DNA from: an uncultured Desulfobacteraceae bacterium
GTDB taxonomy: Bacteria > Desulfobacterota > Desulfobacteria > Desulfobacterales > UBA5852
DNA: 64,000 nucleotides
Direction: 5' to 3'
Assembly: GCA_913060875.1 (NCBI GenBank)
Contig: CAJXSL010000012.1
Span: 1 to 64,000 of the forward strand
A model generated the notes under the pieces. It had not been told where the DNA came from and did no database searches. It was given only the letters and a program-made list of their open reading frames with translations. This document shows positions 502 through 36,946 of this stretch, one piece after another (position 1 is the stretch's first letter; each line of letters opens with the position of its first letter). A program made the translations under genes and the position numbers.

Positions 502-511
502 TGGAGGCAAA

Positions 512-8894: not shown

Positions 8895-9073
8895 AACCGT
8901 CTGCCCCGCTGATGTTCGGGGCGGGACAATGGACAAGCGAACAGCCGAAACGACAAACCATTTTACGCCCCCTTCGAGAGGGTTGCTTGAGATCTCCCGC
9001 TTTGCGGGAATAGACTTACTTTCGGTATGGATCCACGCATCGCCAAACATGGAAAGGGCAAGGGGAGCATCAT

Positions 9074-20060: not shown

Positions 20061-20070
20061 CTTCGCCGGT

Positions 20071-20150
20071 TAGCCCGGACATTTCATGAAATTTTTTCGG
20101 TGCAATAAATTTATGTAACTATACAGGGTTATTAACGCTATTCGGGCTAT
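20071..20150. repeat. REP-like palindrome, copy 2 (interrupted)
   Basis: TAGCCCGGACATTTCATG (20071-20088) matches the shared core. The expected partner TTCGGGCTA lies at 20141-20149, about 50 bases further away than in copies 1 and 4, so AT-rich sequence seems to have entered the loop. Confidence 0.45.
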
Positions 20151-20174
20151 GTGCGAAAGTCTTCTATCGACACC

Positions 20175-20774
20175 CTACCAACTTAAGGTGATTTCGTTTG
20201 AGCAAACCGATGTTCCCTTCGTACAAACCTGGTAAGTTGCCGGCTTTCCGCTGTTAAACGGACCATGCAGATATTCTCCGTCGTTAGGTATCCCCGCACC
20301 ATCAGAAACCAAACTCCCGTTGCGATAAACATCGATGTATTCTGAGGAGGCTCCCAACCAGGAAAGGTTGGCGAATTTATCCCCTTTTATTTTGAAAGCA
20401 TCAGCGCTAAGGGTGATATCGTCGTCGGAGGTCGCTATGGGGGGTTCGACAACCGTGCTGTCTGGTTCAGGGATTGTAATGTAAGTTTCAGAGGAATAAC
20501 CGCTTTCATTCCCCACTTTGTCCACCGCGGTTACTGCAAAGAAGTAAGTCTTTCCCGATTGTAAATTGGCGTAAAGATATTCGGTCGTATTACCGATGGA
20601 AATAGGCGGGCCGTAAGCCCTGGATTGGGTACCGCAATAGACATTGTAGCCTTTCAGGTCCGGCTCCGTGTTTGGCTGCCATTGCAGCAAGCTGTCGTTG
20701 GCCGCTGAGGGGTGTGAGGCGAAAAAAATAAAAATCAGAAGAAAAGAAAAACCGAGGTGTTTGCTTGTTTTCAT
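20175..20774 (-). CDS. Secreted fibronectin type III-domain protein
   Basis: The 199-residue protein has a clear signal peptide (basic start, FSFLLIFIFFASHPSAA). Residues 28-105 are an FnIII fold: LLQWQPNTEPDLKGYNVYCG, then YANLQSGKTYFFAVTAVDKVGNES. A second beta-rich half (about 115-199) has DVYRNGSLV and ends in EITLSW. It is likely an extracellular or periplasmic adhesion module. The gene stands alone, and its coding sequence is visibly richer in A and T than its neighbours, which hints at separate ancestry. Confidence 0.75.
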   Translation of the reverse strand: MKTSKHLGFSFLLIFIFFASHPSAANDSLLQWQPNTEPDLKGYNVYCGTQSRAYGPPISIGNTTEYLYANLQSGKTYFFAVTAVDKVGNESGYSSETYITIPEPDSTVVEPPIATSDDDITLSADAFKIKGDKFANLSWLGASSEYIDVYRNGSLVSDGAGIPNDGEYLHGPFNSGKPATYQVCTKGTSVCSNEITLSW

Positions 20775-21176
20775 TTTTCCTCTCCGATAAGCGGTTTCTT
20801 TTTAAGGAACCAGCAAAATTTAAGCCAAAGAGAGGAAAACGTATTCTATCGCAATTTTTTTAGGGCATCTAATCGCGATTTTCAGCGACCATTCCGTTTT
20901 ATTTGATTATAAATGCTATCATATCAATAAGATATGGGCATAATGAAGGTAAATTCAATGCGGTCTTCATGTTCTGGGGGTAAAAAGAAGCAAAGGGATT
21001 ATAACTAACTGTTTATATATAAAAACGTTATTTTATGTATACAAAAGTATTCGATGCGGGTTGTTGCTGTATGCTTTTCCCACCTGTTGGCGTTCTTTTA
21101 GAGCTTATTGTATTTTTACGTGCAATGGCTGTCGGGTGGCCAGGCAGGAAGTTACTTGGTGGTTCCGTTGATGACT
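20775..21176. other. AT-rich intergenic region between convergent-side genes
   Basis: About 400 bases, AT-rich, lying upstream of the FnIII gene and downstream of the FadR-type regulator. The frames at 21035-21371 on the plus strand run into the regulator gene and show no family features. I see no RNA gene or clear terminator here. Confidence 0.4.
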
Positions 21177-21890
21177 TTAGTCAATGGTTACGCCGCGACG
21201 TTTGGCTGCATTCTGGAGATGGGCTCTTACAGCTTTTCGCGCTCGATCGGGCTCCCCGCGTTCAATCGCCTGAAAAATATCGATATGTTCATTCTGGACT
21301 TCATGGGGCAGTCCGATCTGGATAGAGCTGTCCCGATCGGCCTGCACCAGATCGCGAATTTTATTTCCTAGAAACGACATAAAATCAATCAGGTAAGGGT
21401 TTTTGCTGGCGGCCGTCACTTCTTTATGGAAATCGACATTCGCGCCTGTCCCATCACGATGATCCTCGCTGGCCCGGCTTAAATCACCAATCAGCTGTCT
21501 CATTTCATCCAGATCTTCATCCGTGCGCCGTACCGCCGCCAATGCGGCGGCTTCACTTTCCAGAATTGCCCGAAATTCATAAAGATAAGCGATTTCCTCC
21601 AGGTTATTCGCCTCGAGCTGATTCATGCGAAACACACGCTTGGAGCCGTCACTGGCTACCTTGGAGCGGCTGCCCTGGCTCGACTCCAGGAGTCCATCAT
21701 ATTTCAGGCGTCCCAAAGCCTCGCGAATGACGGTCCGACTGACATTAAACTGATCAGACAACTCGGCCTCGGAAGGCAGGAGCTCGCCCGGTTTAATGTT
21801 GCCGCTTTCGATTTCCGCGATGAGGAAGTCGGAAATTTGATCGGAAAGCTTGGGCACGCGCATGATGTTCGGTTTGCGGGATAGTTTCAT
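21177..21890 (-). CDS. FadR/GntR-family transcriptional regulator (FCD domain)
   Basis: The protein is 237 residues. A winged helix-turn-helix occupies about 12-80 (LPSEAELSDQFNVSRTVIREALGRL is the GntR signature) and an FCD ligand domain about 95-225, with metal-binding candidates in DFHKEV, the following HEVQNEH and RAHLQ. FadR-subfamily proteins usually repress a divergent catabolic operon and release it when a carboxylate binds. The divergent CoA-transferase/TRAP operon is the obvious target, and a dyad lies between them. Confidence 0.88.
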   Translation of the reverse strand: MKLSRKPNIMRVPKLSDQISDFLIAEIESGNIKPGELLPSEAELSDQFNVSRTVIREALGRLKYDGLLESSQGSRSKVASDGSKRVFRMNQLEANNLEEIAYLYEFRAILESEAAALAAVRRTDEDLDEMRQLIGDLSRASEDHRDGTGANVDFHKEVTAASKNPYLIDFMSFLGNKIRDLVQADRDSSIQIGLPHEVQNEHIDIFQAIERGEPDRARKAVRAHLQNAAKRRGVTID

Positions 21891-21917
21891 AGCGTCGATC
21901 CAATCTGTTGATATCGC

Positions 21918-21947
21918 ATACTATGGGAAACGATGGTTGAATGTCAA
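21918..21947 (-). promoter_or_regulatory. Sigma-70 promoter of the FadR-type regulator
   Basis: On the minus strand TTGACA (21947-21942) and TAGTAT (21923-21918) are separated by 18 bases, ending 28 bases before the ATG. Confidence 0.55.
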
Positions 21948-21976
21948 ACATTAAGGTTTTTTATAGCATTTTATAC

Positions 21977-21997
21977 TTGACATACAACATTATATGT
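21977..21997 (+). promoter_or_regulatory. Candidate operator with -35 element for the CoA-transferase/TRAP operon
   Basis: TTGACA (21977-21982) looks like a -35 box and overlaps the dyad ACATA-(8 bases)-TATGT (21980-21997). GntR proteins bind short dyads of this kind in divergent spacers. No good -10 sequence is seen at the matching distance. Confidence 0.4.
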
Positions 21998-22096
21998 TAT
22001 TGGTTACGACAAAATATGACTGGCAGACGCAAAATGAATGACACTCAGAATCGGTTGCCAAGACCGATCACCCAAGAGGCGCAAGGAGGTAGATGA

Positions 22097-23296
22097 ATGT
22101 ATGCTCTGGAGGGCTTGAAGGTCGTTGATTTGACCCGTTTCGTTTCCGGCACTTTTTGCTCTATGCAGTTGGCCGACCATGGCGCTGATGTGGTCAAAAT
22201 CGAGTCCCCCATCGACCGCGGGGATCAGTTGCGGAGTTGGGGGCCGTTCATCGGGGACAAGAGCTACTACTTCATAACCCTCAACAAGAACAAACGCAGC
22301 ATTGCCCTCGATCTGAGGAGTCCGGAGGGCATCGAGATCGTCAAACGGCTTATTGAAGAAAGTGACGTGCTGGTCGAAAACTTCCGTCCAGGGCTGATGG
22401 AAAAAATGGGGCTTTCCTGGCCGGAAGTCCACAAAATCAATCCCAGGCTCGTATATTGTTCCATCACCGCCTATGGGCAGACAGGCCCCTTTCAAAGCAA
22501 ATCCGGTTTTGACGTCTCTGTTCAAGGCGATACGGGTTTCATGGATATCACCGGCTTCGATATCCCCACCCGTGTCGGCATCGGCTTGACCGATTTCATC
22601 GGGGCGTTTTACGGCCTGGTCGGTATATATTCCGCCCTTCTCGCACGGGAAAAGACCGGTGAGGGACAGCATGTCGACAGCGCCATGATGGACGGCATGA
22701 TGGCGCTCCTCACCTACCAGGCCGGCCATTATTTCGCGACGGGCGAGACACCGAAAAGGACCGGCAACCGCCATCCCCAGCAAACGCCTTATGGAACGTT
22801 TCAAACCAAAGACGGCTTCGTGATCATTGGCGCCGGCAGCCAGCGGCTGTGGGAGAATCTATGCGCCAAGGTTCTCGATCGCCGGGACCTCATGGCGGAT
22901 CCCAGATTTCTCACGCTCAAGGACCGCAACCAAAATCACGCTGTTTTGCAGGACGAAATCGAAAAAACAACCCGGGAAAAGGATACGGATACCTGGGTGG
23001 AACTTCTCAACCAGGGGAGCGTTCCCTGTGGAAAGGTGCGTACCGTCAAGGAAGCCTTTGAGTTGGAGCAAACAAAAGCACGCGAGATGGTTGTCGAAAT
23101 GGAGGACGCGTTGCGCGGCCGGATTAAAATGCTGGGCATCCCCACGAAACTTTCCGCAACCCCGGGTAAAATCAGGTTGATGCCACCGCTTCTCGGTGAG
23201 CACACCGATGAGGTCCTGAAAGAGATCGGCTACGCGGAGGATAAGATCCAGGCGTTGAAGGAGTTCAACGTGGTCCGGCAGTATGCGATCCCCTGA
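22097..23296 (+). CDS. CaiB/BaiF-type (class III) CoA-transferase
   Basis: This 399-residue protein is full length for the family. It begins LEGLKVVDLTRFVSGTF, has VKIESPIDRGDQLR, LDLRSPEGIEIVKRL and VENFRPGLMEKMGL, and the catalytic Asp is expected in GFDVSVQGDTG (about residue 137-147). Class III enzymes move CoA between carboxylic acids through an aspartyl-CoA thioester. AAGGAGG lies just before the ATG. It opens the operon with the TAXI-TRAP transporter, so it probably activates the acid that the transporter brings in. Confidence 0.9.
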   Translation: MYALEGLKVVDLTRFVSGTFCSMQLADHGADVVKIESPIDRGDQLRSWGPFIGDKSYYFITLNKNKRSIALDLRSPEGIEIVKRLIEESDVLVENFRPGLMEKMGLSWPEVHKINPRLVYCSITAYGQTGPFQSKSGFDVSVQGDTGFMDITGFDIPTRVGIGLTDFIGAFYGLVGIYSALLAREKTGEGQHVDSAMMDGMMALLTYQAGHYFATGETPKRTGNRHPQQTPYGTFQTKDGFVIIGAGSQRLWENLCAKVLDRRDLMADPRFLTLKDRNQNHAVLQDEIEKTTREKDTDTWVELLNQGSVPCGKVRTVKEAFELEQTKAREMVVEMEDALRGRIKMLGIPTKLSATPGKIRLMPPLLGEHTDEVLKEIGYAEDKIQALKEFNVVRQYAIP

Positions 23297-23384
23297 GATT
23301 TGGAACGTAAGCAGAGAATTGAGAGTCAAAAGAAGTGTGTAGGAATTCGTGTACTTGTGTCCAGAAACGGTAAAGGAGGAAATC

Positions 23385-24377
23385 ATGAAGAGGGCTTTTG
23401 CTGCGATAACGGTTGTTCTGACAGTGGCCGCGTTCATGGCAACAGATGCGTTCGCCGCGCGGGCGTATCGAATCAAATGGGGCGCGGTTTCCCCCCGGAT
23501 CGGGTCGTTCGCCTACATTACAACCATGGCGCGAACCGTTAACAAGGATCTGAAGGGACAGGTCACGATTTCCCCGATGGAAACCGGAGGGTTTCTCGAC
23601 AACATCCTGAGACTTCAGAAGGGGCTCGTCCACTGCGGTCTCACCCACAACCTGGCCGCGTATGCGTGCTACAAGGGCATCGCCGATTTCGAAGGCAAAG
23701 GCGATGATCAGCTTAGGGGGTTGTGGGGCGGCTATGTCGCTCCCGTACTCCAGGTTGCCATCAAGGACCGCAATATCAACAGCATCTACGAACTCGACGG
23801 AAAGCCGTATGTGATGAGTCCCGGCACGACCGGCGGGCGGCTGTCCAAAATGTTTCTCGGGTCACTTGGTATCAAGCCTGAATACAAGCTCATGGGAATT
23901 TCTTCAGGCATCGACGCCATGAAAGCCGGATCGGTGGATGCCTTCTACCGCATTGGGCCGCTCGATTCCTCCATCCTTGAGATTCAATCGACCATGGATG
24001 TGGTCTTTCTGCCGGTCACCCCCGACGATTTGGCCAAATTTGAAAAAGCCTGGCCCAAGCATTCGCTCGAATACACGCTGGCGGCCAACACCTACGACGG
24101 CCAGACGGACCCGGTGCTTTGCCTGGCCTACGCCTGTGGTGACTACAGTCATGTCAGGGTGCCGGAAGACGTGATTTACAAGATCGTCAAGTCCGCTTAC
24201 CAGAACCGGGAAAAAATCGGCACGTCCGTTCCCATCGCCCGCGACGGGAAATGGAGCGAAATGTGGGACCATACGGTCAAGTTCATGGAAGTCCCGCTGC
24301 ATAAAGGGGCTGTAAAAGCATATCGGGAACTCGGATTCACCGTTCCTGAAAGACTTATTCCGCCGGAAGCAAAATAG
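23385..24377 (+). CDS. TAXI-family TRAP transporter solute-binding protein
   Basis: The 330-residue protein has a signal peptide (MKRAFAAITVVLTVAAF…AFAA). Its repeated-motif layout is that of TAXI binding proteins: GAVSPRIGSFAYI, NILRLQKGLVHCGLTHN, YVMSPGTTGG and MKAGSVDAFYRIG. AAAGGAGG at 23372-23379 selects the ATG at 23385. TAXI proteins bind carboxylates such as glutamate or 2-oxoglutarate in the periplasm and deliver them to a fused TRAP permease, here two genes downstream. Confidence 0.88.
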   Translation: MKRAFAAITVVLTVAAFMATDAFAARAYRIKWGAVSPRIGSFAYITTMARTVNKDLKGQVTISPMETGGFLDNILRLQKGLVHCGLTHNLAAYACYKGIADFEGKGDDQLRGLWGGYVAPVLQVAIKDRNINSIYELDGKPYVMSPGTTGGRLSKMFLGSLGIKPEYKLMGISSGIDAMKAGSVDAFYRIGPLDSSILEIQSTMDVVFLPVTPDDLAKFEKAWPKHSLEYTLAANTYDGQTDPVLCLAYACGDYSHVRVPEDVIYKIVKSAYQNREKIGTSVPIARDGKWSEMWDHTVKFMEVPLHKGAVKAYRELGFTVPERLIPPEAK

Positions 24378-24391
24378 GCAAGGAGGGTGAT

Positions 24392-24787
24392 ATGAAAAGA
24401 AGGCCGCAAGCAGCTGTCGGAATTATCCTGGGGCTATCCTTGACGTTGTTCCTGGTCTTTTCCGGCTGTGCCGGCAGGGACATCAAAGCCGGCGCCGCAA
24501 CACCGGCGCTGACCGTTTCGGGCTCCGGCGTCCCCGGCAAGGTTATGGACGTGAGCGGAACCGGATTCGTTCCGGATGAGGTCATTGAACTGGTATTGAA
24601 CATGGAAGACGTGCCGATCATTGTCGGGAAGAAAGGCAAAGTCATCAAGGCAGGACCGGACGGCGCCTTCAAGGCCAAAACCAACTATCCCCATAAGTAC
24701 GTGGCCATCGCGGGTCTCTGGGACCTGGAGGCCACAGGCGACAAGGGATCTTTCGCCGTCTGCAAGGTGAAACTCCAGAAGCCCTGA
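24392..24787 (+). CDS. Small lipoprotein in the TRAP operon, unknown function
   Basis: The protein is 131 residues with a lipobox VFSGC (about residues 22-26) after a hydrophobic stretch. The mature part is a single beta-rich domain of about 100 residues, with SGSGVPGKVMDVSGTGFVPDE resembling an IPT/TIG-like start. It sits between the TAXI protein and the permease, so it may assist substrate capture at the membrane. I recognise no defined family. Confidence 0.65.
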   Translation: MKRRPQAAVGIILGLSLTLFLVFSGCAGRDIKAGAATPALTVSGSGVPGKVMDVSGTGFVPDEVIELVLNMEDVPIIVGKKGKVIKAGPDGAFKAKTNYPHKYVAIAGLWDLEATGDKGSFAVCKVKLQKP

Positions 24788-24855
24788 CAGGCGAGGGATA
24801 ATAAGGCCCAAGACCATACCGGATCTAGGCCATTGCTATTGAGGAGAAATTGGGT

Positions 24856-24899
24856 GAGAAGGCCGTTCCAGGTGCTAAACGGCTATCGGTGGCCTTCTC
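24856..24899 (+). other. Long hairpin between lipoprotein and TRAP permease genes
   Basis: GAGAAGGCC (24856-24864) pairs perfectly with GGCCTTCTC (24891-24899), and the inner CCGTT/AACGG arms extend it. C and T runs follow. The 349-base spacer (24788-25136) holds no other supported gene. The hairpin could reduce permease expression relative to the binding protein, as transcript-processing sites often do in transporter operons. Confidence 0.45.
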
Positions 24900-25136
24900 C
24901 CCCCCTTATAGCGGCATAAGGTAAATGTCGGTCACAGCAAGATTGGCAACGATTGAAATAGAACGAAACAGGGCGATCAGAAGGATGCCATCTGAGACTC
25001 AATCGCCTGATGTCGCATATTATTTTCAAAGAACGCGCCGGGCGTCCCTTGCCATCACCGGGCCCGCGATGTCTTTGGTAAGGATTTCCACGACAGTTTT
25101 TACACGGGCCATTGAGCCGATTTACAGGAGACTAAA

Positions 25137-27155
25137 ATGAGAGCACTCACGGGCGTTTGGAAGTGGATTGTAATCGCAATTACCGGAATGGCCGTAACTT
25201 TTATCGTTTTCACTTCGCTCTGGCGTCCTTTCCATCCAGCCCTGCAGGGGGCCGTTGTCCTCACGTTCGGCATGCTCGTCGTTTTTATCAACTATCCCAT
25301 CAGTAAATCAGCATTGACCCGGAACCCGTCCGGAAGTGCGGCCATGCTGCTATACGGTTCCGGTAATGCCCCATCCCTCCTCGACATCATTTTTACAGTG
25401 CTGGGAACGGCCCCGTGCATTTTCATCATTTTCAACTGGGAGCCGATCGTCAGCAATCCGCTCACCTACGAAACCTACTACCTGGTGCTCGGTGCCATCC
25501 TGTTTATCATGCTGGTGGAAGCGACCCGCCGGACCCTTGGCAACATCGTGCCGATTGTTGTTTCGTTGTTTATTGCCTATGCGCTCTTGGGCCATCTGCT
25601 CCCCGGGGAACTCGGTCATGCCGGTTACGGCCTTGAGGAACTGCTCTACATTTTCTACCTGACCACTGAAGGTGTCTGGGGGCTTCTCACCGACTTGACC
25701 AGCCGGTTGATTGCCATTTTCATTCTGCTCGGACCGATCCTGTTCGCATGCGGTGTCGGGAACACGTTCATTAAATGGTCACGCTTTACCGGCGGCCGCA
25801 TCAGGGGCGGGGCCGGCCAGATCGCGCTGCTCTCCAGTGCCGGTCTGGGAATGCTGTCGGGTTCGTCGGTGGCCAATGTCGCCACGACCGGCACCTTCAC
25901 GATCCCGACAATGAAAAAGCTCGGATACAATGACGAAATCGCCGCTGCGACCGAAGCCTCGGCCTCTTCCGGTGGGCAGATCATGCCCCCGATCATGGGC
26001 GCCGGGGCCTTCGTCATGGCCGAGCTGCTTGGCATCAAGTACATGGAGATCATGTTTGCGGCCATCATTCCGGCAATTTGCTATTTTATGGGCATCGGCA
26101 GCGGCATTTATGTGCTTGCCGGGAAATATGGTCTTGGCAAACTGCCCGCCAAACTCATCCCCAAATGGGCGGATCTTTTTGACCCCCGCGAATTGATGAA
26201 CACGGTCATTCCCATCGGGATTCTTATTTACCTTCTCGTACAATACATGCCGCCGCAGACTTGTGCCGGATGGGCCCTGGTCTCCTCCCTGGTCATTTTC
26301 ATATTCATGGGGGGGCCCCTGAAGCGTCAGGAAACGACGAAGCGCGTCACCATAAGCCTGCAGGCATTTTACAAAGCGGTCAACGGCGCCCTTGTCATGC
26401 TCATCGTCATGATGAGTTGTGTGCAAGTAGTCGTTACGCTCATCAACGCAACAGGTCTGGGGGTCAAAATCTCCGAGTTCATCGTCAACCTGGCGGGCAC
26501 CAATGCCTTCCTCGCACTCGTGGCGGTGATGATTGTGGCCATCATTCTGGGCATGGGGATGTCCACCACGGCCGCGTATGTCATTGCGGCGTCAGCCCTC
26601 GGACCGGCCCTGGTCACCCTCGGCCTGCCGGGATTGCCGTCGCACCTGTTTATCTTTTATTTTGCCATCGCGGCCGGCATCACGCCCCCCGTGTGTGTGG
26701 CCGTATTCACGGCACGCGCCATTTCCGGCGGATCCTGGGTCCGAATTGCGATGATCTCGATGGGGCTGAGTCTCGGCGGATACATCATTCCATATTTTTT
26801 CATCTATCAGCCGGCCATCCTGATGCAGGGCGGCACTTTCCTGGGAACCATTTGGATTATGATCACCGTGGCGATTGCCATGTTTTTCATCGAAGCCGGT
26901 GTGTTCGGATATTTCCTGAAACCGACCTCGATACCGGAAAGGGTACTCTTCATTATCGGGGGATTGTTTCTTCTCAGCTCCACCTTGGTGTCGGATATCG
27001 TCGGCATTGCGCTGGTCGGGGTGGGAATTCTGTGCCACATTTATACCCCCAATATTCCGTTTCTCAGCAGCCGGCCGGAAGAACTTCCCCGGGTGAACCT
27101 GGAAGATATTGATTGGACCGGCGAGGACAGCATCGCCAACATGAAGGTCAGTTGA
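25137..27155 (+). CDS. TRAP transporter fused permease (DctQM-type, TAXI-linked)
   Basis: This 672-residue protein fuses the small 4-TM and large 12-TM TRAP subunits, as is usual for TAXI systems. Conserved DctM motifs include GGRIRGGAGQIALLSSAGLG, SSVANVATTGTFTIPTMK, EASASSGGQIMPPIMGAGAF and the GITPPVCVAVFTARAISGG loop. It imports the solute using the sodium or proton gradient. It is followed 36 bases later by the MBL gene. Confidence 0.92.
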   Translation: MRALTGVWKWIVIAITGMAVTFIVFTSLWRPFHPALQGAVVLTFGMLVVFINYPISKSALTRNPSGSAAMLLYGSGNAPSLLDIIFTVLGTAPCIFIIFNWEPIVSNPLTYETYYLVLGAILFIMLVEATRRTLGNIVPIVVSLFIAYALLGHLLPGELGHAGYGLEELLYIFYLTTEGVWGLLTDLTSRLIAIFILLGPILFACGVGNTFIKWSRFTGGRIRGGAGQIALLSSAGLGMLSGSSVANVATTGTFTIPTMKKLGYNDEIAAATEASASSGGQIMPPIMGAGAFVMAELLGIKYMEIMFAAIIPAICYFMGIGSGIYVLAGKYGLGKLPAKLIPKWADLFDPRELMNTVIPIGILIYLLVQYMPPQTCAGWALVSSLVIFIFMGGPLKRQETTKRVTISLQAFYKAVNGALVMLIVMMSCVQVVVTLINATGLGVKISEFIVNLAGTNAFLALVAVMIVAIILGMGMSTTAAYVIAASALGPALVTLGLPGLPSHLFIFYFAIAAGITPPVCVAVFTARAISGGSWVRIAMISMGLSLGGYIIPYFFIYQPAILMQGGTFLGTIWIMITVAIAMFFIEAGVFGYFLKPTSIPERVLFIIGGLFLLSSTLVSDIVGIALVGVGILCHIYTPNIPFLSSRPEELPRVNLEDIDWTGEDSIANMKVS

Positions 27156-27191
27156 TTTGGCATCGACGTTGGCGAAAAGGAGTGCGGTGAT

Positions 27192-28049
27192 TTGAAAATA
27201 CGCCTGACGACCCTGAGCGAAAATACGGCCGGCAAACCAGGATTTTCAGCGGAGTGGGGGCTGAGCATACTGGTCGAGGCCGATGATCACACCATCCTGT
27301 TTGACACCGGGGCCGGTGACGTTGCCTTGCGCAATGCCGACCGCCTGGGCATCCGGATTCCATCCGGGACCCCCATTGTCCTGAGCCATGCCCATGCGGA
27401 TCACACCGGCGGATTGGTACCGGTGCTGAAGCGCATTGGGAACACCAGGGTCATGGCCCATCCCGCCATATGGGAGAAGAAATATACCCGGCGCCCCTAT
27501 GAAGACCAGGCGGCCGACATCAGCATGCCCTATGAAAGGCCGGCGCTGGAACAACTGGGGGCTGATTTTCATCTGAGTGCCGAGCCGGTAAAGATTGCGG
27601 AGAACATTTGGGTGAGTGGTGAAATTCCAATGGTAACGGATTTCGAAGCCATCGAGCCTATTTTCTACATCAAGGAAAACGGCGCATTCCGGCCTGATCC
27701 CATTCTTGACGACCAGGCCTTGTATATTCGCAGCAACAAGGGCCTGGTTATCGTTTTGGGCTGCGCCCATCGCGGAATGGTGAACACGGTTTTGCATGCC
27801 CGCAACATTACCGGTGAGCCGCGAGTTCATACCATTATCGGCGGCACCCATCTTTTTCCGAAAACCGAAGACCAGAAACAAAACGCCATCGAAGCGCTCA
27901 AAGAATTGGGCGTACAAAAAATCGGCGCCTCCCATTGCACCGGGTTTCCTGCGGCCATGATGCTGGTGCAAGCGTTTGGGGATAAATTCTTTTCCAATAA
28001 TGCCGGAAGCATCACCATCATCGATGACGCCGACACCACGGACGATTGA
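27192..28049 (+). CDS. MBL-fold metallohydrolase
   Basis: The protein is 285 residues. The metallo-beta-lactamase motif is SHAHADHTGG, with later ligands in LGCAHRG and ASHCTG. The overall pattern resembles the MBL group often labelled 7,8-dihydropterin-6-methyl-PABA phosphate synthase-like, found in many anaerobes. The start is TTG with AAAGGAG about nine bases upstream; an upstream GTG is closed by a stop. In this operon it may hydrolyse a thioester or ester of the imported compound, which is inferred from context only. Confidence 0.78.
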   Translation: MKIRLTTLSENTAGKPGFSAEWGLSILVEADDHTILFDTGAGDVALRNADRLGIRIPSGTPIVLSHAHADHTGGLVPVLKRIGNTRVMAHPAIWEKKYTRRPYEDQAADISMPYERPALEQLGADFHLSAEPVKIAENIWVSGEIPMVTDFEAIEPIFYIKENGAFRPDPILDDQALYIRSNKGLVIVLGCAHRGMVNTVLHARNITGEPRVHTIIGGTHLFPKTEDQKQNAIEALKELGVQKIGASHCTGFPAAMMLVQAFGDKFFSNNAGSITIIDDADTTDD

Positions 28050-28056
28050 AGGACCA

Positions 28057-29610
28057 ATGAACGCGGAGACGACGAAAACCAACGGGCAGGATTGTTTGTC
28101 GGCTCGCCTGGACCGGAGCTTCCGAAAGCATGCCGAGCAGTCGGCCTTGCGGTTTTTGCGGGATGGCAACGTTGAAACTGCGCTGACCTACGCTGAACTC
28201 AACAACGATGTCAACCGAATGGCCCGCTATTTTGTGGAATCCGGGATTCGGAAAGGAGACCGGGTCATTCTCTTTTTGCCCAAATCGGTCGTTTTTCTCG
28301 TTTCCCACCTTTCTCTTCTCCGTATCGGGGTCGTGTCCGTGCCCGTGAATCCCGGTTTTCGTCAAGCAGAAATGGACTATCTGGTTCGAGATACGGATCC
28401 GGCCCTGATTGTCGCCGACAAGCCCCAGGCGGAGATACTCGAAAAGGTAAACCCCCATTGCAGTGTTCTTGTTTTGAGGACGGATCAGTCATATGACGAT
28501 GTCGACTTCTTTCGGTCGTTTTCCGAGAAAATTCCGACTGTCGACATCCAGCCGCAAGATCCCGGCACGATCATTTATACATCCGGCACGACGGGGCAGC
28601 CCAAGGGGGCTGTTTTAACCCAGGGCAACCTCGCCCATGACGCGAAAAATATCATCGCCATATGGCAAATCAATGACGCCGATCGCATCTGCCATGCGCT
28701 GCCCCTTTTTCATGTCCACGGCCTCGGTTTTGCGGTGCACACAGCTTTGATGGCGGGTTCCGAGATTTTGCTGCATGATCGATTTATGCCCCAAACGGTC
28801 ATCGATGCACTGGCTCGGAAGGAGCGCGAGAACCGCTGCACGGTGTTTATGGCGGTGCCGTCCATGTATGTCAAAATGATCGAGGCGATTGAAAAAGCAC
28901 GGATGGATTTCGATCATATACGGTTGTGGACGTCCGGGTCGGCTCCGCTCCTCACTAAAGACTTCGATAGGATCAAGGCTGTTTTCGGGAAAGCGCCGGT
29001 TGAACGCGAGGGGATGTCGGAAACCGGCATGAACTTCTCCAACCCCTTGAAGGGGCTGAAAAAGCCCGGATCCATCGGCCTGCCCTTGCCCCAGCTCGAG
29101 GTGAAAATCGTTTCAACGGAAACGGGTGCCATCCTGCCATCAGGAGAAGTCGGGGAAATCTGGCTTAGAGGACCCGGCATAACGCCCGGATACTGGCAAA
29201 AACCGCAGGAAACCGCCAAGGCATTTGAAGATAGCTGGTTCAAAACAGGCGATCTTGGCTATGTGGACCGGGACGGATACTACTATTTGACGGATCGTTT
29301 GAAAAACATCATCATTTCCGGTGGCGAGAATATATCGCCTAAAGAAGTCGAGACCGTTATCAATCAGATAGATGCTGTCCTTGAATCGTCTGTGGTCGGT
29401 ATTCCGGACGAAAAGTGGGGTGAAAAAGTGGTCGCCGCAATCAAATGCCGCCCCGGTAAGGAGCTGGATGCTTCCGCAATACGACAACATTGCCGGAACC
29501 ATCTACATGCCTGGAAAACGCCCAAGGATGTCAGATTTGTCGAAGAGATCCCCAAAAACCGAATGGGAAAGGTCTTAACGCGTGACGTGCGGCAGTTCTT
29601 CACGGACTAG
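28057..29610 (+). CDS. AMP-forming acyl-CoA synthetase
   Basis: The 517-residue protein has the adenylate-forming motifs IIYTSGTTGQPKGAV (about residue 170), the switch REGMSETGM, the adenine-binding GDLGYVDRDGYYYLTDR and the catalytic Lys near the end in PKNRMGKVL. It converts a carboxylic acid, ATP and CoA to acyl-CoA. The frame is open upstream, but AAGGA at 28048-28052 fits the ATG at 28057. With the CoA-transferase it gives the operon two ways to activate acids. Acid chain length cannot be told. Confidence 0.9.
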   Translation: MNAETTKTNGQDCLSARLDRSFRKHAEQSALRFLRDGNVETALTYAELNNDVNRMARYFVESGIRKGDRVILFLPKSVVFLVSHLSLLRIGVVSVPVNPGFRQAEMDYLVRDTDPALIVADKPQAEILEKVNPHCSVLVLRTDQSYDDVDFFRSFSEKIPTVDIQPQDPGTIIYTSGTTGQPKGAVLTQGNLAHDAKNIIAIWQINDADRICHALPLFHVHGLGFAVHTALMAGSEILLHDRFMPQTVIDALARKERENRCTVFMAVPSMYVKMIEAIEKARMDFDHIRLWTSGSAPLLTKDFDRIKAVFGKAPVEREGMSETGMNFSNPLKGLKKPGSIGLPLPQLEVKIVSTETGAILPSGEVGEIWLRGPGITPGYWQKPQETAKAFEDSWFKTGDLGYVDRDGYYYLTDRLKNIIISGGENISPKEVETVINQIDAVLESSVVGIPDEKWGEKVVAAIKCRPGKELDASAIRQHCRNHLHAWKTPKDVRFVEEIPKNRMGKVLTRDVRQFFTD

Positions 29611-30805
29611 ATGGTCATCCGACTCGTTTCCAACATGGGAAGAGGTACGAGATCGGGTGGAACGGTTTGCCCAAACAAATGCTGATATCACTCAGATCGA
29701 AACCATCGGCCACACCGCGGAAGGAAGGGCAATCCGCGCGGTTTTTGTCACCAATACCGACCATCCGGACCAAAACAAGGAGATCGTTCTAATTGTTTTC
29801 GGACGGCACGGGGATGAACTCGGTACCCGCACCGTCGGCCTGCAGCTCCTTGAATGGCTGGCTTCACCGGAAGCAAGGGACGTCCTGATCAATCAACAGG
29901 TCATTGTGGTGCCGGTCGCCAATCCGGATGGCTGCGCTACGCAAACCTTTGGTCTTCCTGCCAATCGGCTTTCGACGCTCGAAAAAGAATCCATCATCAA
30001 ATTCGGTCTTTCCATCGTTCCGGATTTAGTTCTAGACGTTCACAGCGTTGGAAAGGGGAAATACGGGTACAACTGGGGTGGCCTGGAGGCTGTCATTATT
30101 GATGAGACCGCCCGATCCGGGGAAGACCCCTATATCCTGCATACACTGGCAGACCAAATGATCCAGGGGGCCGCCCAGAAAGGCTATCCGTTCCTTCTGC
30201 ATACCGCCGAATTCTATCGCAACCTGAAAAATAAAGCGGCTACGCTTACGGACGGCGCTTTCAACAACCATGTTAATCAGGTTTTTTACGATGCCTTCCA
30301 TTCCCTGACCTTCGGTATGGAAGTCAACCATTTTGTCCTCAACCCCCAAGAAGCCGCCGAAAGCGGTGTCGCCGCCATCGCCGCTCTTCTCGAAGCTGGC
30401 AACGCTGTTTATCCCTGGGAATATTACGCGGGGTATCCCAATCGGATCATCATCGGTGATTTCCAAGCCTCCATACGTCCCCGGGGCGAAACCGCGGCGA
30501 TACGCCGCTCTTCAAGGCTGGAAATCTGGGCGCAGCGCCATATTTTCGGCAGCATTGCGCCCTACCGAAAAATGGAAAACGATCATTCGCTCGACCTTGA
30601 ATTCGCCTTTCACGGCGCGAGGCCACTCCAGGGCGGACTGACCGTTGGCACACGTCTTCGGGGACAGCCACGGATCAAGCGGATTGAAGCCAACGGGACC
30701 ATCCCCACCTATGCCGCTGCCACGGACGTTTGCTCCACCCATCTTTTCATTGATTTTGAAACCATCGAACCCGACATACACAATAAGATTTATGTTGAAT
30801 TTTAA
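29582..30805 (+). CDS. M14-family zinc carboxypeptidase
   Basis: This 407-residue protein shows the M14 zinc set: H-x-x-E in FGRHGDELG (about residues 73-81), the third ligand in LDVHSVGKG (about 151-159), and the catalytic Glu in FGMEVNHF. M14 enzymes release C-terminal amino acids or deacylate amino-acid conjugates. The gene overlaps the synthetase by 29 bases and has no signal peptide, so it is cytosolic. With the transporter and acyl-CoA enzymes, this suggests that amino-acid conjugates of carboxylic acids are cleaved after uptake (inference). The start GTG is the best available but is not certain. Confidence 0.8.
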   Translation: MTCGSSSRTRWSSDSFPTWEEVRDRVERFAQTNADITQIETIGHTAEGRAIRAVFVTNTDHPDQNKEIVLIVFGRHGDELGTRTVGLQLLEWLASPEARDVLINQQVIVVPVANPDGCATQTFGLPANRLSTLEKESIIKFGLSIVPDLVLDVHSVGKGKYGYNWGGLEAVIIDETARSGEDPYILHTLADQMIQGAAQKGYPFLLHTAEFYRNLKNKAATLTDGAFNNHVNQVFYDAFHSLTFGMEVNHFVLNPQEAAESGVAAIAALLEAGNAVYPWEYYAGYPNRIIIGDFQASIRPRGETAAIRRSSRLEIWAQRHIFGSIAPYRKMENDHSLDLEFAFHGARPLQGGLTVGTRLRGQPRIKRIEANGTIPTYAAATDVCSTHLFIDFETIEPDIHNKIYVEF

Positions 30806-30875
30806 TCCCTCAATTCAACTTTGTATGTCCAGGAGATATCGCACTACCTTCAGGACGCTTGATAGTCATGCCGTC

Positions 30876-31442
30876 CTATCCAATGATTTTATGGGCGAAG
30901 GCGATTGCTTTGTCTTTGATGCGCTCATCCAATTGGTCCGGTGTTGAACACGACCCGATGAAAAGCTCCCCGGCGTTTACCGCCTTATGGGGCTTTTGCA
31001 GGCGGCCGAACGCCGTGAAGGCGGCTTCGGCATTATTTTCGTAGGGGCCACCGCCGGTTACCAGCAAGGCCTGGCGTTGCCCCTCAACCAGTGAAGCATG
31101 CCCGGGCTGGTGATAATCGACATAAAGGCTGTAGGTGCGATCGATGACGGTTTTCAATTGGGCGCTCACACCCCAGAAATAGAGGGGCGATGCAAAAATC
31201 ACCAGCTCGGCCCGGGTCATTTTTTCCAGAATTTCCGGGATATCGTCTTTCTGGATGCATCCGACGGTATCCGGCTTTTCCTTGCATTGGCCACACGCAA
31301 GGCACCCTTTAAGGTTTTTCGTATTCAAAAAGATGGATTCAACTTCGTGACCCAAAGCGCCAAGCTCTTGTTCGACCCAGGAAAGTACCTGGGCTGTATT
31401 GCCATTTTTTCGGGGGCTTCCCTGCAGGGTAATGACCTTCAT
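30876..31442 (-). CDS. Iron-sulfur flavoprotein / NADPH-dependent FMN reductase family protein
   Basis: The 188-residue protein has the phosphate loop LQGSPRKNGNT and the compact cysteine motif C47-x2-C50-x2-C53-x8-C62 typical of anaerobe iron-sulfur flavoproteins. SPLYFWGVSAQLKTVIDR is the flavin-contact segment. AGGAGG six bases before the ATG fixes the start; an upstream in-frame ATG lacks this. It converges on the M14 gene. It probably transfers electrons from ferredoxin to an unknown acceptor. Confidence 0.85.
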   Translation of the reverse strand: MKVITLQGSPRKNGNTAQVLSWVEQELGALGHEVESIFLNTKNLKGCLACGQCKEKPDTVGCIQKDDIPEILEKMTRAELVIFASPLYFWGVSAQLKTVIDRTYSLYVDYHQPGHASLVEGQRQALLVTGGGPYENNAEAAFTAFGRLQKPHKAVNAGELFIGSCSTPDQLDERIKDKAIAFAHKIIG

Positions 31443-31616
31443 TTCCGTCCTCCTGTATGACCTGTCATTAACACATCGATGCGATTTCATATTCCCGTAT
31501 CCAAGATAAAGGCGTCATTTAGGCGAAATGGATGGCGTCGTCAAATGAATTGTTGGATACCCCGCTGAAGGGTGGCGCCGCTATGCCATCTACGGGACCT
31601 GAGGGTTGGCGGCCAC

Positions 31617-31726
31617 CGGCCAACGCTTGACATATCGCGCCCTGCCTTTTATGCCTTTCAAGACAAACCGGCCTGATATTGAGCAGACACTTCCTATTCC
31701 AACGGGGCGAGCGGAGGTGGCGATGG
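31617..31726 (+). repeat. Left ~110-bp direct repeat flanking the caspase-like gene
   Basis: This 110-base segment matches 35436-35546 at all but three positions (two substitutions and one indel). It ends with GCGGAGG…ATGG, which in the right copy is the ribosome-binding site and start codon of the DUF362 gene. Here the frame closes after nine codons. Beyond it (31727-31868) the nonamer GTCATGCAC occurs twice, at 31789 and 31828. No other gene is seen in 31443-31868. Confidence 0.85.
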
Positions 31727-31868
31727 TAGCCGCCTCGAAATGCTCATGTAATTAGCGTTCGCTCCGTTTTCTTGCCGCCTTACGTCTTGTCATGCACCCT
31801 AATCTTGTTTTTGGGATAGGTTATCGTGTCATGCACGTTGACCGCTTACACTGACGGGAGGTGATCAG

Positions 31869-34800
31869 GTGTTTAAACGGCACACCCTGCGGGCGCAAGC
31901 CCCTTTCCTCATCGTTATCCTGTTGGCGGCAATAGGGTGCCATAGCGGAACCGGAGGACAGCGGCTGGGATTATCGGCACCTCTCCCTGCGCCATTGCCT
32001 TTGGATAACCTGAACGCAATTCAGCTGCGCTTTTTTGAATCGGGATACACGGCGAGCCCATTCGGGAATAGAAATTACAGAACCCGATTTGAACGCCGGG
32101 GCACACGATATATCTATTGGGAACTTCGCCTCAATTTCTCTCCACCGAAACGTGATATATATTTCAACATTGATGCTATCTGGTTCCGATCCGACGGCCG
32201 CATTCTAGCAAAAGACGCCTGCCGGTTTCATGTTAAGCCGAACTGGACCCACTTTCGGGTATACCGGGGATGGGGCGCAAGGAGCGGTTCATGGTGGTTG
32301 CCCGGGGCCTATCGCGTGGTCCTTTATTTCGAGGGGCGCGAGCTTGCAGAAGGTAAGTTTGAAGTCGAGGGCTCGGATCGAAAGCCGCCCCGGAAACCGT
32401 TCCTCCGGCTGGATACAGGAATGCATACGGCCTCCACCTGGGAGTTGGATGTCGATGCAGACAATCGCTACATGGTGACCGGTGCCAACGATAAGACGGT
32501 GCGGGTGTGGGACCTGATCAACCGTCGGTTACTGCGAACCTTGCGCCCGCCGATTGGGGAAGGAAAAGAAGGCGCTATCGGCGCATTGGCAATTTCGCCT
32601 GATGGCCGTGCGGTTGCTTGCGGCGGCAGAACAGGATGTTCATGGGAGGGAACCTGTTCGGTCTACATATTTGAAACGCAATCCGGAAAACTTATACGGC
32701 GTATCAAAGGCTTTGCAGGGCCAATCAAGCATATTGACTATTCGCGGCAGGGTCGCTATCTGGCCATTGCTTATCGCAACGGGCTTGCAATATATCGAAT
32801 ACCGACTTACGACCTTATCGGTCGAGATGAAGACTACCAATCGCAATGCACCAGTGTGGACTTCGGCCCGGACCGACTTATCGCCTCCGTCTCCCCTGAT
32901 GGCTTTGTGCGGCTGTACCGTGTCCGGAAGGACAGCCTAAAGCTTATATCTAAACGAAAATCCCCCCATGATCGTCCGCCATATTGCGTGCAATATGCCC
33001 CTGATGGAAAAAAAATAGCGATAGGATACTGGTCCTCGAAGGGCTATTGGGCTCAGGATACCCCGAAAGTCGATGTGATATCAGGCGTGGACTTACAATT
33101 CCTGTATTCTCCGGATACCAGTGGACTCACGCACGGTTTGGAGCCGGTTACATGGTCCAAGGATGGGCGTTGTCTGTACGCCGGGGGGTACCCAATGACA
33201 TGGGCGGGTAAACGGATGGCACCGGTGATCCGATGGTCCAAGGAGGGCCGTGGCACCAAGACCGTTTTTCCGGCAGATAACGATGCCATTCAGGACATAT
33301 TTCCACTCAAGAATGGCGGCATCGTATTTGTTGCCCATAACACCGCTTGGGGCGTTCTGGATTCCGCCGGCAGGAAAGTTTACTACCATCGTCCCTGCAA
33401 AGCTGATTTCAGGGGCTATATGAACATACCTTCTTCCATGTTGAAGACATATATGGATCAGCTGGCTTCGCAACAGGTGAATGCTTCGCAAGATCAAAAG
33501 GGATGGTTAGAAGAGCCTGCGATAAGAGGGTTTCCGATTTCTGAAGATGCCACCAAAGTGATTTTCAGTTTTGAAGCGAAAGGCCGCCAAGCAGCCCTTT
33601 TTGATGTTGCGGGAAGATCACTCCAGCTGAACCCGCTTTGGAAGAATAGCTATTTGCTTCCGATTCTCGAATCGCCTCGGCTGCAAGTTACAGGGTGGTG
33701 TGGCAAGGCCAAGCCCAAGCTGAATGGCCGGCGCTTGAGGCTGGGCACAAATGAAATATCATGGTGTCTGGCAATATCGCCGAATGACGGCGGTTTTCTG
33801 CTCGGTACGGAGTGGAACCTTTATCATTTTGATCAGGAAGGGCACAAAATCTGGCGGACTCCTTTGGATTCGGCCGCTTGGGCGGTGAATATTTCAAAAG
33901 ACAGCCGTATCGCCGTCCTTCATCTGGCGGACGGTACGATCCGCTGGTACCGCATGCTCGATGGAAATGAAATTTTGGCATTCTTTCCACATGCGGATCG
34001 CAACCGTTGGATTGCTTGGACGCCGGAAGGGTACTACATGTCTTCTCCCTATGGAGATGAATTGGTCGGATGGCATTTAAACAATGGCAAGGACCAGGAG
34101 GCTCACTTTTACGCGGCCATGCAATTTGAGCGTATTCTTTTTCAACCGGCATACGTCCAATCCTATTTTCGCTATCTCGGAAATCGAAAAAAGGCCGCTA
34201 AAATGCTTGGCGGGCCGTTCTTCGATATTAAAGACTTGCGGTCAATAGCGCCCCCTCGCGTTGAGATTGGGTTATCAAAACCTTCTGGCAGAGGCCGTTC
34301 CAATAAGATTGAGTTGGTTTTTAAAGCCGACAAACAAAGTCTGCCAATGGAATCCTTCGCTGTATTTGTAAACGATATTCCGATAATTCCGTCCACAGAA
34401 AGGTTGTTGTTCGGAAAGGAGCGAAACCAATTCTCCCGCCAGCTTGAAATTCCTGTGCAGAGCAGGAGAAACAATATACGGGTCGAGGTTTTCAACGGCA
34501 GGTCCATGGGGTTGGCCCATACCTCAGTGCCTTATGATGGCAACACAATCGAAGCGAAGCGGGGGGATCTTTATCTGTTGGCCGTGGGGGTTAACCATTT
34601 CCCCAAGATGCCGTCATGGAATCTCACCTATGCGGTCCAGGATGCCGTCAACATCGCCGCCCTATTTAGCCAGCAAAAAGGGGGAATTTATCATGACGTC
34701 CATCATCGCGTCATTTCGGATCGCTCCGGCATCAAGCCACGGAAGACCCAAATTCTTGCCAGTCTCGATTTTATTGCCGATGCCGGTGCCAATGACACCG

Positions 34801-35363
34801 TGATCGTCTTCTTGGCATCGCACGGCGTGAGTGATCTGGCCGGGAATTACTATTTCGTACCTTCCGATGCCGAAATTGCCGATATTCAGCGTGTCGAAAA
34901 CTCGCGCCGGAGCGGTCAGGTACTACCAGAGGCGGGAGTACCCTCACTGGTGCCGTGGAAAGTTTTTTTCGACGCGTTGAGGGCAACTGCCGGCCGTCGG
35001 ATTCTCATTGTCGACACCTGTCAGGCCCGGGCTATTTCAGGCCCTTTGGATATACACGCGTTGGCGAAAAAATCATTGACGTCTGCTTTTGCGCTTCTCG
35101 CGGCCTCCAAAGGGGATGAGTCGTCGCAGGAATATCCTGAAGGTCGACATGGACTGTTCACATACGCTTTGCTAAAGGGTCTTTGGGGCGATGGCGATAG
35201 GGACAATGACCGGCAAGTTACTTTGAATGAGCTTTACGAATTCGCTCGGCGGTTTGTCGAGAGCAAACGCGACCGATCGATTGGACGTCAAACGCCACAG
35301 TTGGCCTCACCTTCGATTCTCAAGGATATTCCGCTATCATTTTGTCGGAGGCGAGATCCATAG
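31869..35363 (+). CDS. Lipoprotein with WD40 repeats and C-terminal caspase-like (peptidase C14) domain
   Basis: The protein is 1164 residues. A lipobox (LLAAIGC) ends the signal peptide, so the mature protein is probably anchored outside the cytoplasm. Residues about 30-175 are an unrecognised beta-rich domain. About 188-720 hold degenerate WD40 blades (e.g. DADNRYMVTGANDKTVRVWDL). About 893-1120 are a caspase-like domain with H985 in FLASHG and C1051 in VDTCQA, so the catalytic pair is intact. GGGAGG precedes the GTG start. The gene appears lower in G and C than its neighbours and lies between ~110-bp direct repeats, which points to acquisition. Caspase-WD40 proteins occur in bacterial signalling, cell death and defence; the substrate is unknown. 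Confidence 0.88.
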   Translation: MFKRHTLRAQAPFLIVILLAAIGCHSGTGGQRLGLSAPLPAPLPLDNLNAIQLRFFESGYTASPFGNRNYRTRFERRGTRYIYWELRLNFSPPKRDIYFNIDAIWFRSDGRILAKDACRFHVKPNWTHFRVYRGWGARSGSWWLPGAYRVVLYFEGRELAEGKFEVEGSDRKPPRKPFLRLDTGMHTASTWELDVDADNRYMVTGANDKTVRVWDLINRRLLRTLRPPIGEGKEGAIGALAISPDGRAVACGGRTGCSWEGTCSVYIFETQSGKLIRRIKGFAGPIKHIDYSRQGRYLAIAYRNGLAIYRIPTYDLIGRDEDYQSQCTSVDFGPDRLIASVSPDGFVRLYRVRKDSLKLISKRKSPHDRPPYCVQYAPDGKKIAIGYWSSKGYWAQDTPKVDVISGVDLQFLYSPDTSGLTHGLEPVTWSKDGRCLYAGGYPMTWAGKRMAPVIRWSKEGRGTKTVFPADNDAIQDIFPLKNGGIVFVAHNTAWGVLDSAGRKVYYHRPCKADFRGYMNIPSSMLKTYMDQLASQQVNASQDQKGWLEEPAIRGFPISEDATKVIFSFEAKGRQAALFDVAGRSLQLNPLWKNSYLLPILESPRLQVTGWCGKAKPKLNGRRLRLGTNEISWCLAISPNDGGFLLGTEWNLYHFDQEGHKIWRTPLDSAAWAVNISKDSRIAVLHLADGTIRWYRMLDGNEILAFFPHADRNRWIAWTPEGYYMSSPYGDELVGWHLNNGKDQEAHFYAAMQFERILFQPAYVQSYFRYLGNRKKAAKMLGGPFFDIKDLRSIAPPRVEIGLSKPSGRGRSNKIELVFKADKQSLPMESFAVFVNDIPIIPSTERLLFGKERNQFSRQLEIPVQSRRNNIRVEVFNGRSMGLAHTSVPYDGNTIEAKRGDLYLLAVGVNHFPKMPSWNLTYAVQDAVNIAALFSQQKGGIYHDVHHRVISDRSGIKPRKTQILASLDFIADAGANDTVIVFLASHGVSDLAGNYYFVPSDAEIADIQRVENSRRSGQVLPEAGVPSLVPWKVFFDALRATAGRRILIVDTCQARAISGPLDIHALAKKSLTSAFALLAASKGDESSQEYPEGRHGLFTYALLKGLWGDGDRDNDRQVTLNELYEFARRFVESKRDRSIGRQTPQLASPSILKDIPLSFCRRRDP

Positions 35364-35435
35364 ATCGAAGGCCATTGATACGGCAGCGGCGACTTTTGCG
35401 TATTTTCTATTTGAAGCTGAAGCGATGGTTGCAGA

Positions 35436-35546
35436 CGGCCAACGCTTGACATATCGTGCCCTGCCTTTTATGCCTTTACAAGACAAACCGGCCTGATATT
35501 GAGCAGACACTTCCTATTCCAACGGGGCGAGCGGAGGCGGCGATGG
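35436..35546 (+). repeat. Right ~110-bp direct repeat overlapping the DUF362 gene start
   Basis: The partner of the repeat at 31617-31726. It ends over the ATG of the DUF362 gene, so this copy supplies the working translation start. Confidence 0.85.
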
Positions 35547-36946
35547 GTTCGAGTGATCCGGGCAATACGGTGTTTATCAAGCGCTGCGAGGACTACGATC
35601 GGAAACGGATAGAAGCCATTGTGTCGGAAGGCATGGCCTACTGCAACTACCGCCCGCGCGGCCGTGTCATGGTGAAGCCCAATGTGGTCTTTGCCTACAA
35701 CACCGAGCGGTTCGGCAGCACGGCTTATACCGCCACGCCCCTGGTGGGCGCCTCCCTCACAGCACTTGCACGATCTTCGGCGGTGAAGCGGATCGATATG
35801 GGGGAGAACTGCGCCGTGGGGATGCCCACCCGGCTTTGCTACCGGAACGCCGGCTACTACGATGAAGTGGCGTGCGTCAATCAGGAGGCCGGCTGTCCGG
35901 TGGGGATCTTCTGCATGGACGAAGAGCCGCGCGAATCCGTCTTTGTCGGCGGGGTGGTGCACGACAACTTGCGAATTTCCCGCAAAATGGCCCGGGCGGA
36001 CACCAAGGTTTATCTCCCCAAACTCAAGTGCCACTGCGTCAGCAACATGACCGGTGCGGTCAAACTCAACATCGGCATTTGCTCGGATGACGAGCGCGCC
36101 ATCCGCCACGATTTTATGCTGGACGAAAAAATCGTCGATCTTTTGGCGCCCGGTTATCCGGATTTCATCGTCATGGACGCCATTGACGTGGGCGTGGGCA
36201 ACGAGGCCTTTCCCACCCCCCGCAAGTTGGGTCTGGTGATCATGGGCACCAATCCCATGGCCGTGGATATCGTTGGCGCAAGGCTTTTGGGGTTTGACCT
36301 GGCCGATGTGCCCTATCTCCAGGCGGCGGTCGGACGCGGTTATGGGCCGTCCCGGATCGACCAGGTCACCCTTGCGGGCGACCTGCAAAGCGTTGCCGAC
36401 CTGGACGAACAGGCCCAACGGCTACTGCCCTACGATGATGCCTATACGCGCTGGCAGGATGTGGGCCGGGAGCTCGAGCGGCTGCAATCGCCCATGCGCT
36501 TTTACTGGGGCAGCTATCATGCCGGCAACGGGCACAAATGCCTGACGGGATGCGTCATGGGCCTCAAGATGTTTCTGGGCGGTATTGAGCGATTCGCCGG
36601 CGCCGAAGCGTTTGCCGGTGCCAGGCCCGTAACGTTCGTGATCGGCCGCTGTGAAGAGACCATCGATGCCCGGGGGGAAGACGTCTTCCTGCTGGGCAGC
36701 TGCGCCCGGGCCGACATCATCAACGCCAAAAAAGTCATCCACCTGGACAAGTGCTTCACCACCGCCGGCGACATGAACCTGGCCATCGGCCACAAACTCG
36801 GCATGCCGGCGGTCACCCGGGATCCGGCGTTTCTTTTCCACCTGGTCGGGGCGACGCTAAAAGCCTCGGTACGCAAAGCGGCCAGCATGCGTTACCTGCA
36901 GGACATCCACCACTTCGCAACGAAAAGCCTCATCCGCCGGGTTTAA
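35543..36946 (+). CDS. DUF362 domain protein
   Basis: This 467-residue protein has the DUF362 core: VMVKPNVV near residue 40, a cysteine-poor loop, AVKLNIGI, and PDFIVMDAIDVGVGNE followed by GTNPMAVDIVGARLLGFD. DUF362 proteins are frequent in anaerobes and often accompany ferredoxin domains, though none is seen here. Late cysteines (GRCEE, LGSCARAD, KCFTTAGD) might bind a metal. GGAGG seven bases before the ATG at 35543 fixes the start, although the frame is open further upstream. The following methyltransferase gene is six bases away, so both share a transcript. Confidence 0.82.
   Translation: MGSSDPGNTVFIKRCEDYDRKRIEAIVSEGMAYCNYRPRGRVMVKPNVVFAYNTERFGSTAYTATPLVGASLTALARSSAVKRIDMGENCAVGMPTRLCYRNAGYYDEVACVNQEAGCPVGIFCMDEEPRESVFVGGVVHDNLRISRKMARADTKVYLPKLKCHCVSNMTGAVKLNIGICSDDERAIRHDFMLDEKIVDLLAPGYPDFIVMDAIDVGVGNEAFPTPRKLGLVIMGTNPMAVDIVGARLLGFDLADVPYLQAAVGRGYGPSRIDQVTLAGDLQSVADLDEQAQRLLPYDDAYTRWQDVGRELERLQSPMRFYWGSYHAGNGHKCLTGCVMGLKMFLGGIERFAGAEAFAGARPVTFVIGRCEETIDARGEDVFLLGSCARADIINAKKVIHLDKCFTTAGDMNLAIGHKLGMPAVTRDPAFLFHLVGATLKASVRKAASMRYLQDIHHFATKSLIRRV

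Follow-up and report, generated by a model that had tools for sequence, protein, structure and literature searches.

How does a caspase-like gene come to stand between two nearly identical copies of the leader of its downstream neighbor, and what might its product do? The question is raised by a locus in a 64,000-nucleotide stretch of an uncultured Desulfobacteraceae genome (assembly GCA_913060875.1, contig CAJXSL010000012.1, positions 1 to 64,000; hereafter, the window), where a gene encoding a WD40-caspase precedes a gene of the DUF362 family. The two genes are separated, and the caspase gene is preceded, by direct repeats of 110/111 bp with 108 of 111 alignment columns identical, the differences being two substitutions and one 1-base indel. 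We favor, as an evenly balanced proposition, a recent replication-based rearrangement by template switching at a palindromic miniature inverted-repeat transposable element (MITE), with the caspase segment copied in between the leaders. The most promising lead on the function of the protein comes from its closest relatives, which are encoded beside two-partner-secretion (TPS) genes.

Duplicated leader of the DUF362 gene

An earlier note on this DNA had described repeats of about 110 bp that differ at three positions and include the ribosome-binding site (RBS) and ATG of the DUF362 gene, a left copy that continues for only a few codons, and a 3.7-kb segment holding the caspase-like gene alone; this description was confirmed throughout. 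The right copy carries GGAGG (35533-35537) and the DUF362 ATG (35543), whereas the frame opened by the duplicated ATG of the left copy ends after 10 codons, and the segment between the copies contains one gene (Table 1). A search of the 5.88-Mb genome placed the repeat at exactly two sites (E-values of 4.6e-70 and 3.5e-47), which excludes chance resemblance. Searches of 116 relatives, of 389 genomes of the order besides the bacterium's own, and of IMG/VR gave no match. The repeat is thus unique to this locus and not one of a general family dispersed over many loci, a possibility raised in the earlier note.

The leader contains a −35-like TTGACA with a poor −10 (TATGCC, 17-bp spacing), and a consensus promoter scan listed no promoter there; hence its role as a promoter is only presumed. 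A 12-mer, CGCTTGACATAT, is common to the leader and to the promoter region ahead of a small gene and DUF362 in the genus mate G003, with 12 of 1000 shuffles equally good, and weakly favors the leader as native to the DUF362 gene. In G003, the DUF362 ortholog (78% identical) is preceded by this small membrane-protein gene and has no caspase gene upstream, which makes it the nearest substitute for an empty site. A riboswitch or other known RNA in the leader was considered and rejected, as Rfam gave no matches at gathering scores and only chance-level ones.

Truncated MITE at the left junction

The left repeat copy passes directly into a truncated palindromic MITE-like element. The changeover occurs inside GG(C/T)GGCG.TG, a stretch of about 11 bp that occurs both in the DUF362 start region and inside the element, and the two features overlap in the last 11 bp of the repeat, which constitute this microhomology. 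The left junction bears the signature of a join formed through microhomology at a palindrome. Alignment of dispersed copies defines the whole family element as an imperfect palindrome of about 145 bp bounded by CTAGAACCTATCTCAAAA and TTTTGAGATAGGTTCTAG, with TA at each end, of which the copy at the locus keeps the right half only. Matches to the element number 45, 44, and 31 in three genus mates, 13 in the bacterium's own genome, and 5 in G003; the DNA just after the left repeat likewise has matches scattered through genus mates and certain other families of the order, several of these matches lying at contig ends. The family is short, multicopy, and bounded by terminal inverted repeats, and it is called MITE-like because the sampled flanks of its copies contained no transposase; nor was a source transposase identified. 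A longer variant of about 175 bp was also present in a survey of G001-G004. A short direct repeat, GTCATGCAC, occurs twice about 37 bp apart (31785-31850) in the interval from the MITE remnant to the start of the caspase gene and represents a possible operator.

The RBS/ATG region of the left copy and the MITE remnant together form a predicted terminator-like hairpin followed by TTTTCTT. The predicted fold has −43.1 kcal/mol over 31656-31779 (z −2.2), whereas the right leader forms no such hairpin (z +2.45); the support is modest, since the hairpin was noticed post hoc and shuffling of the downstream part gave an equally stable fold in 8 of 500 cases. Such a structure would hide the RBS and ATG of the left copy and, if real, would terminate or attenuate transcription before it reached the caspase gene. 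With this hairpin between the left leader and the caspase gene, the latter, which has a good RBS, probably relies on its own start signals, read-through from the left leader being at most leaky.

Table 1. Coordinates of features at the WD40-caspase locus (positions in the window; residues in the caspase protein)
Feature	Position	Strand	Details
Left repeat copy, DUF362 leader	31617-31726	+	TTGACA, untranslated leader, RBS, ATGG; by alignment to right copy
Predicted terminator-like hairpin	31701-31768	+	left copy RBS/ATG region and MITE remnant, then TTTTCTT
MITE, right half	31716-31825	+	right terminal repeat TTTTTGGGATAGGTTAT at about 31808-31825; left half gone, leader copy in its place
10-codon open frame in left copy	31723-31755	+	MVAASKCSCN-stop; from sequence
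Segment between repeats	31727-35435		3,709 bp; one gene, 31869-35363
WD40-caspase gene	31869-35363	+	1164 aa; GTG start, GGGAGGTGAT RBS
Putative lipoprotein-type signal	residues 1-24		MFKRH...FLIVILLAAIGC; judged by eye
Seven-bladed WD40 propeller	32418-33392, residues ~184-508	+	7bie, Z 37.2, rmsd (root-mean-square deviation) 1.8, 283 residues aligned; residues 186-508 superposed on 7bie
Peptidase_C14 (caspase) domain	34578-35327, residues 904-1153	+	Pfam 49.6 bits, cut-off 21.4
Catalytic dyad	H985 (34821-34823), C1051 (35019-35021)	+	
Right repeat copy, in place ahead of DUF362 gene	35436-35546	+	by alignment to left copy
DUF362 gene	35543-36946	+	PF04015, 102.7 bits, E 3.7e-29

Origin of the arrangement

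The locus combines near-identical leaders, a truncated MITE, and a microhomology, and its repeat is unique in the genome and among the relatives. Under the template-switch reading, a replication fork that had already copied the DUF362 leader would have stalled and switched template at the microhomology (GGCGGCG.TG) from the DUF362 start region to the interior of a MITE upstream of the WD40-caspase gene. Copying would then have run through the half-MITE and on through the caspase gene (3.7 kb), and a second switch would have returned the fork to a point immediately ahead of the DUF362 promoter region. The outcome would be an insert flanked by the two leaders, of which the right one would remain joined to DUF362 as its working copy and the left one would now lie upstream of the caspase gene, separated from it by the terminator-like hairpin. 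We infer both the switch mechanism and its direction (caspase gene inserted rather than leader copied leftward).

Several observations weigh against this scenario. The microhomology is imperfect (9/11). Neither an empty site nor a donor site for the caspase segment was found among the genomes searched, the leader being present in none of the others, so that two switches in one event are a supposition. The MITE copy at the locus is only 73-76% identical to relatives, as against 97% identity between the repeats; the MITE therefore long predates the duplication, and it is just as conceivable that the caspase gene already resided here.

Such residence is assumed by the strongest alternative, which we regard as doubtful but worth serious consideration: the caspase gene, preceded by the MITE, would already have been located beside DUF362, and a copy of the leader would have been pasted into the MITE with deletion of its left half, bringing promoter-like sequence ahead of the caspase gene. 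The left junction and the microhomology fit this leader capture equally well, the copying of 111 bp suffices, and the GC content of the caspase gene matches that of the species-specific segment on its left (see below). However, the missing MITE half was not found left of the repeat, the downstream terminator-like hairpin would blunt the promoter benefit, and none of 80 caspase loci has a clear DUF362 homolog adjacent.

Campbell-type integration of a circular or donor DNA carrying the caspase gene together with a leader copy, by homologous recombination at the leader, is improbable. A single crossover would yield flanking direct repeats, and the repeat is long enough for recombination, but a prior molecule with both leader and caspase gene is required, and no replication, integrase, or mobility gene is present between the repeats. 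Moreover, WD40-caspases of this family hardly occur on plasmids, where 4 of 72,556 records matched and none reached 80% coverage, or in phages; matches in IMG/VR are distant only and mostly confined to the propeller region.

Tandem duplication is a common process in bacteria, and duplication of a larger leader-DUF362 stretch could have been followed by deletion of the left DUF362 gene, with the MITE and the caspase gene in its place. This course of events is very unlikely, as no DUF362 remnant follows the left ATGG, where the MITE begins at once. Insertion of a mobile element with a long target-site duplication appears more unlikely still. Direct repeats do flank the gene, the gene is absent from the genus mates, and MITE sequence is found at one border, but the MITE is present on one side only and is itself truncated, and no such repeats were observed at the bacterium's own paralog or generally at the 80 related caspase loci. 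The duplication of 111 bp, whose length greatly exceeds that of a normal target-site duplication, together with the absence of inverted repeats at the segment ends and of a transposase, disfavors transposition. The insertion or recombination proposed in the earlier note is thus partly supported: the transposition-type duplication of a target region was not upheld, and in favor of the remainder are the uniqueness of the repeat, the absence of the caspase gene from four genus mates, the G003 DUF362 gene without a caspase gene, and the broken mobile element at the left junction. Least likely of all is an assembly error, for although a 111-bp repeat could mislead a short-read assembler, the copies can be told apart at three positions, and the contig that carries them both is 163 kb long and comes from a 30-contig assembly with 99.7% completeness.

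As a rearrangement, the junction is of an ordinary kind, though well preserved. Its value is that of a clean natural example of what may have been the gain of a gene, or else the copying of a control region, through microhomology at a MITE; the marks of the join can still be read.

Genomic surroundings

The caspase gene has a GC content of 0.52 (0.55 at third codon positions, GC3). The genes of the right flank have GC of 0.60-0.65 and GC3 of 0.71-0.78, and those of the left flank 0.52-0.56 and 0.56-0.71, respectively. The lower GC ascribed to the insert in the earlier note is therefore real relative to the right flank but not to the left, and the contrast belongs to a segment of about 15 kb. 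A GC step at about 35.5 kb bounds this lower-GC segment (~20.1-35.4 kb). Positions ~20150-35436 have almost no DNA match in the genus mates save short conserved stretches, whereas parts of 8-20 kb and 35.5-45.7 kb match G003, which defines a species-specific segment ending at DUF362 with the caspase gene at its right-hand end. The segment encodes a GntR regulator, a CoA-transferase, a tripartite ATP-independent periplasmic (TRAP) transporter, a metallo-β-lactamase (MBL)-fold protein, an acyl-CoA ligase, an M14 peptidase, a flavin mononucleotide (FMN) reductase, and the caspase. No integrase or transposase was found among the ten neighbor genes tested, and no tRNA in the window. A tRNA-anchored genomic island was rejected, given this lack of a tRNA and the nature of the multicopy match at 20066-20156, which is an about 80-bp dispersed element (TTAGCCCGRACATTTCATGAAATTTTTTC...CTATTCGGGCTA) and no tRNA. 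At least 40 copies of this element were scored in the genome, out of 137 candidates, and it occurs also in genus mates; a related short form lies at about 8865-8900.

The WD40-caspase protein

Most likely, the protein is a membrane-anchored putative cysteine protease of orthocaspase type that is guided by its propeller. Histidine and cysteine of the dyad are conserved in 58/61 and 59/61 family members, respectively, in agreement with the catalytic role assigned to H985 and C1051 in the earlier note. The whole-protein model has a mean predicted local distance difference test (pLDDT) score of 83 and a predicted template modeling (pTM) score of 0.80, with low confidence for most of residues 1-84. 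About 150 N-terminal residues are extra and, among the compared sequences, occur only in this protein and in the paralog from the same genome. The caspase fold is assigned by the Pfam match and the dyad, because structure searches returned propellers or nothing: the matches of the fold search with the whole model were filled by propellers, and a sequence search of the caspase domain against solved structures gave no match. Alignment-free folding of the isolated caspase domain gave a model of poor quality (pLDDT 38), which was not used. The suggested tie to defence was not borne out, as PADLOC matched none of five proteins.

Relatives of the caspase and their link to two-partner secretion

The family is known and widespread. 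An alignment-based scan of named genomes revealed at least 505 WD40-caspase loci (a single protein query gave no matches), and a tree of 61 rows covers 11 phylum-level groups. The four genus mates contain no close relative of the caspase gene and give weak matches only (E 3e-8 or worse). A second full-length WD40-caspase is encoded in the same genome at C15:103801-107019 (L036:6790-10173). It is 46% identical over the C-terminal half and is the tree sister of the locus protein (Shimodaira-Hasegawa-like approximate likelihood-ratio test, SH-aLRT, 99). It has no flanking repeats; among its neighbors there is a gene for a peptidoglycan-binding-type protein and none for TPS. As a general trait of caspase loci, flanking repeats were rejected, only three chance-like cases being observed in 80 loci. 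A Peptidase_C14 family search of the genome returned three other loci and missed both WD40-caspases, and is not to be read as a count.

The sister clade to both copies (SH-aLRT 98-100) comprises five loci (L077, L078, L079, L083, and L127) from Thauera sp. 2A1, Rubrivivax metagenome-assembled genomes, Parahaliea maris, and Deltaproteobacterium HGW-12, and its nearest members are about 40% identical over residues 171-1163. In all five, ShlB/FhaC-type and TPS-domain genes are located directly upstream of the caspase gene. In L078, a CHASE2-cyclase gene is located downstream of the caspase gene, and CHASE2-like genes are also found near the caspase in L096, L105, and L108. Because the closest clade adjoins a two-partner-secretion pair, the ancestral role was most likely at the cell envelope, in the processing or quality control of a TPS exoprotein. 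No TpsA/TpsB genes are present near the caspase in the window or at the paralog locus, and a search of the genome, run without a positive control, found no TPS domain; the caspase gene is orphaned here from its TPS partners. Full-text searches returned no paper describing a TPS-caspase link, the papers on TPS and caspases being concerned with host caspases. The link would offer a testable surface role for bacterial caspases. A composite picture, in which a replication accident at the palindromic MITE supplied a secreted, membrane-anchored caspase with a control region duplicated from an unrelated gene, the MITE remnant serving as hairpin attenuator, and in which an unremarked WD40-caspase branch works with TPS exoproteins at the surface, is speculative and rather unlikely to hold as a whole.

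Comparison with known systems

Like bacterial MITEs and palindromes of the repetitive extragenic palindromic (REP) type (PMC10969869), the family at the left junction is short, palindromic, and multicopy, with terminal inverted repeats, TA ends, and no transposase seen; the copy at the locus, in contrast, is half an element and apparently served as a breakpoint rather than a mover. In E. coli, rearrangement junctions with 3-30 bp of microhomology, some of them at REP palindromes, were read as template switches (PMC3161906). The present locus resembles these cases in its short-homology junction with a palindrome at the breakpoint. The E. coli cases are lac amplifications, whereas here a 3.7-kb segment stands between duplicated leaders in an arrangement seen once.

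The caspase locus differs from those of the closest clade in the upstream ShlB/FhaC and TPS genes, present there and missing here. Among 671 bacterial metacaspases, WD40 is the domain most often found as a partner (10.9%; PMC3501461). With the WD40-containing prokaryotic metacaspases and orthocaspases the locus protein shares a C14 domain with an intact C-H dyad; it differs in that the caspase domain is C-terminal, behind a seven-bladed propeller and further strands, and in its putative lipoprotein-type signal and N-terminal extension.

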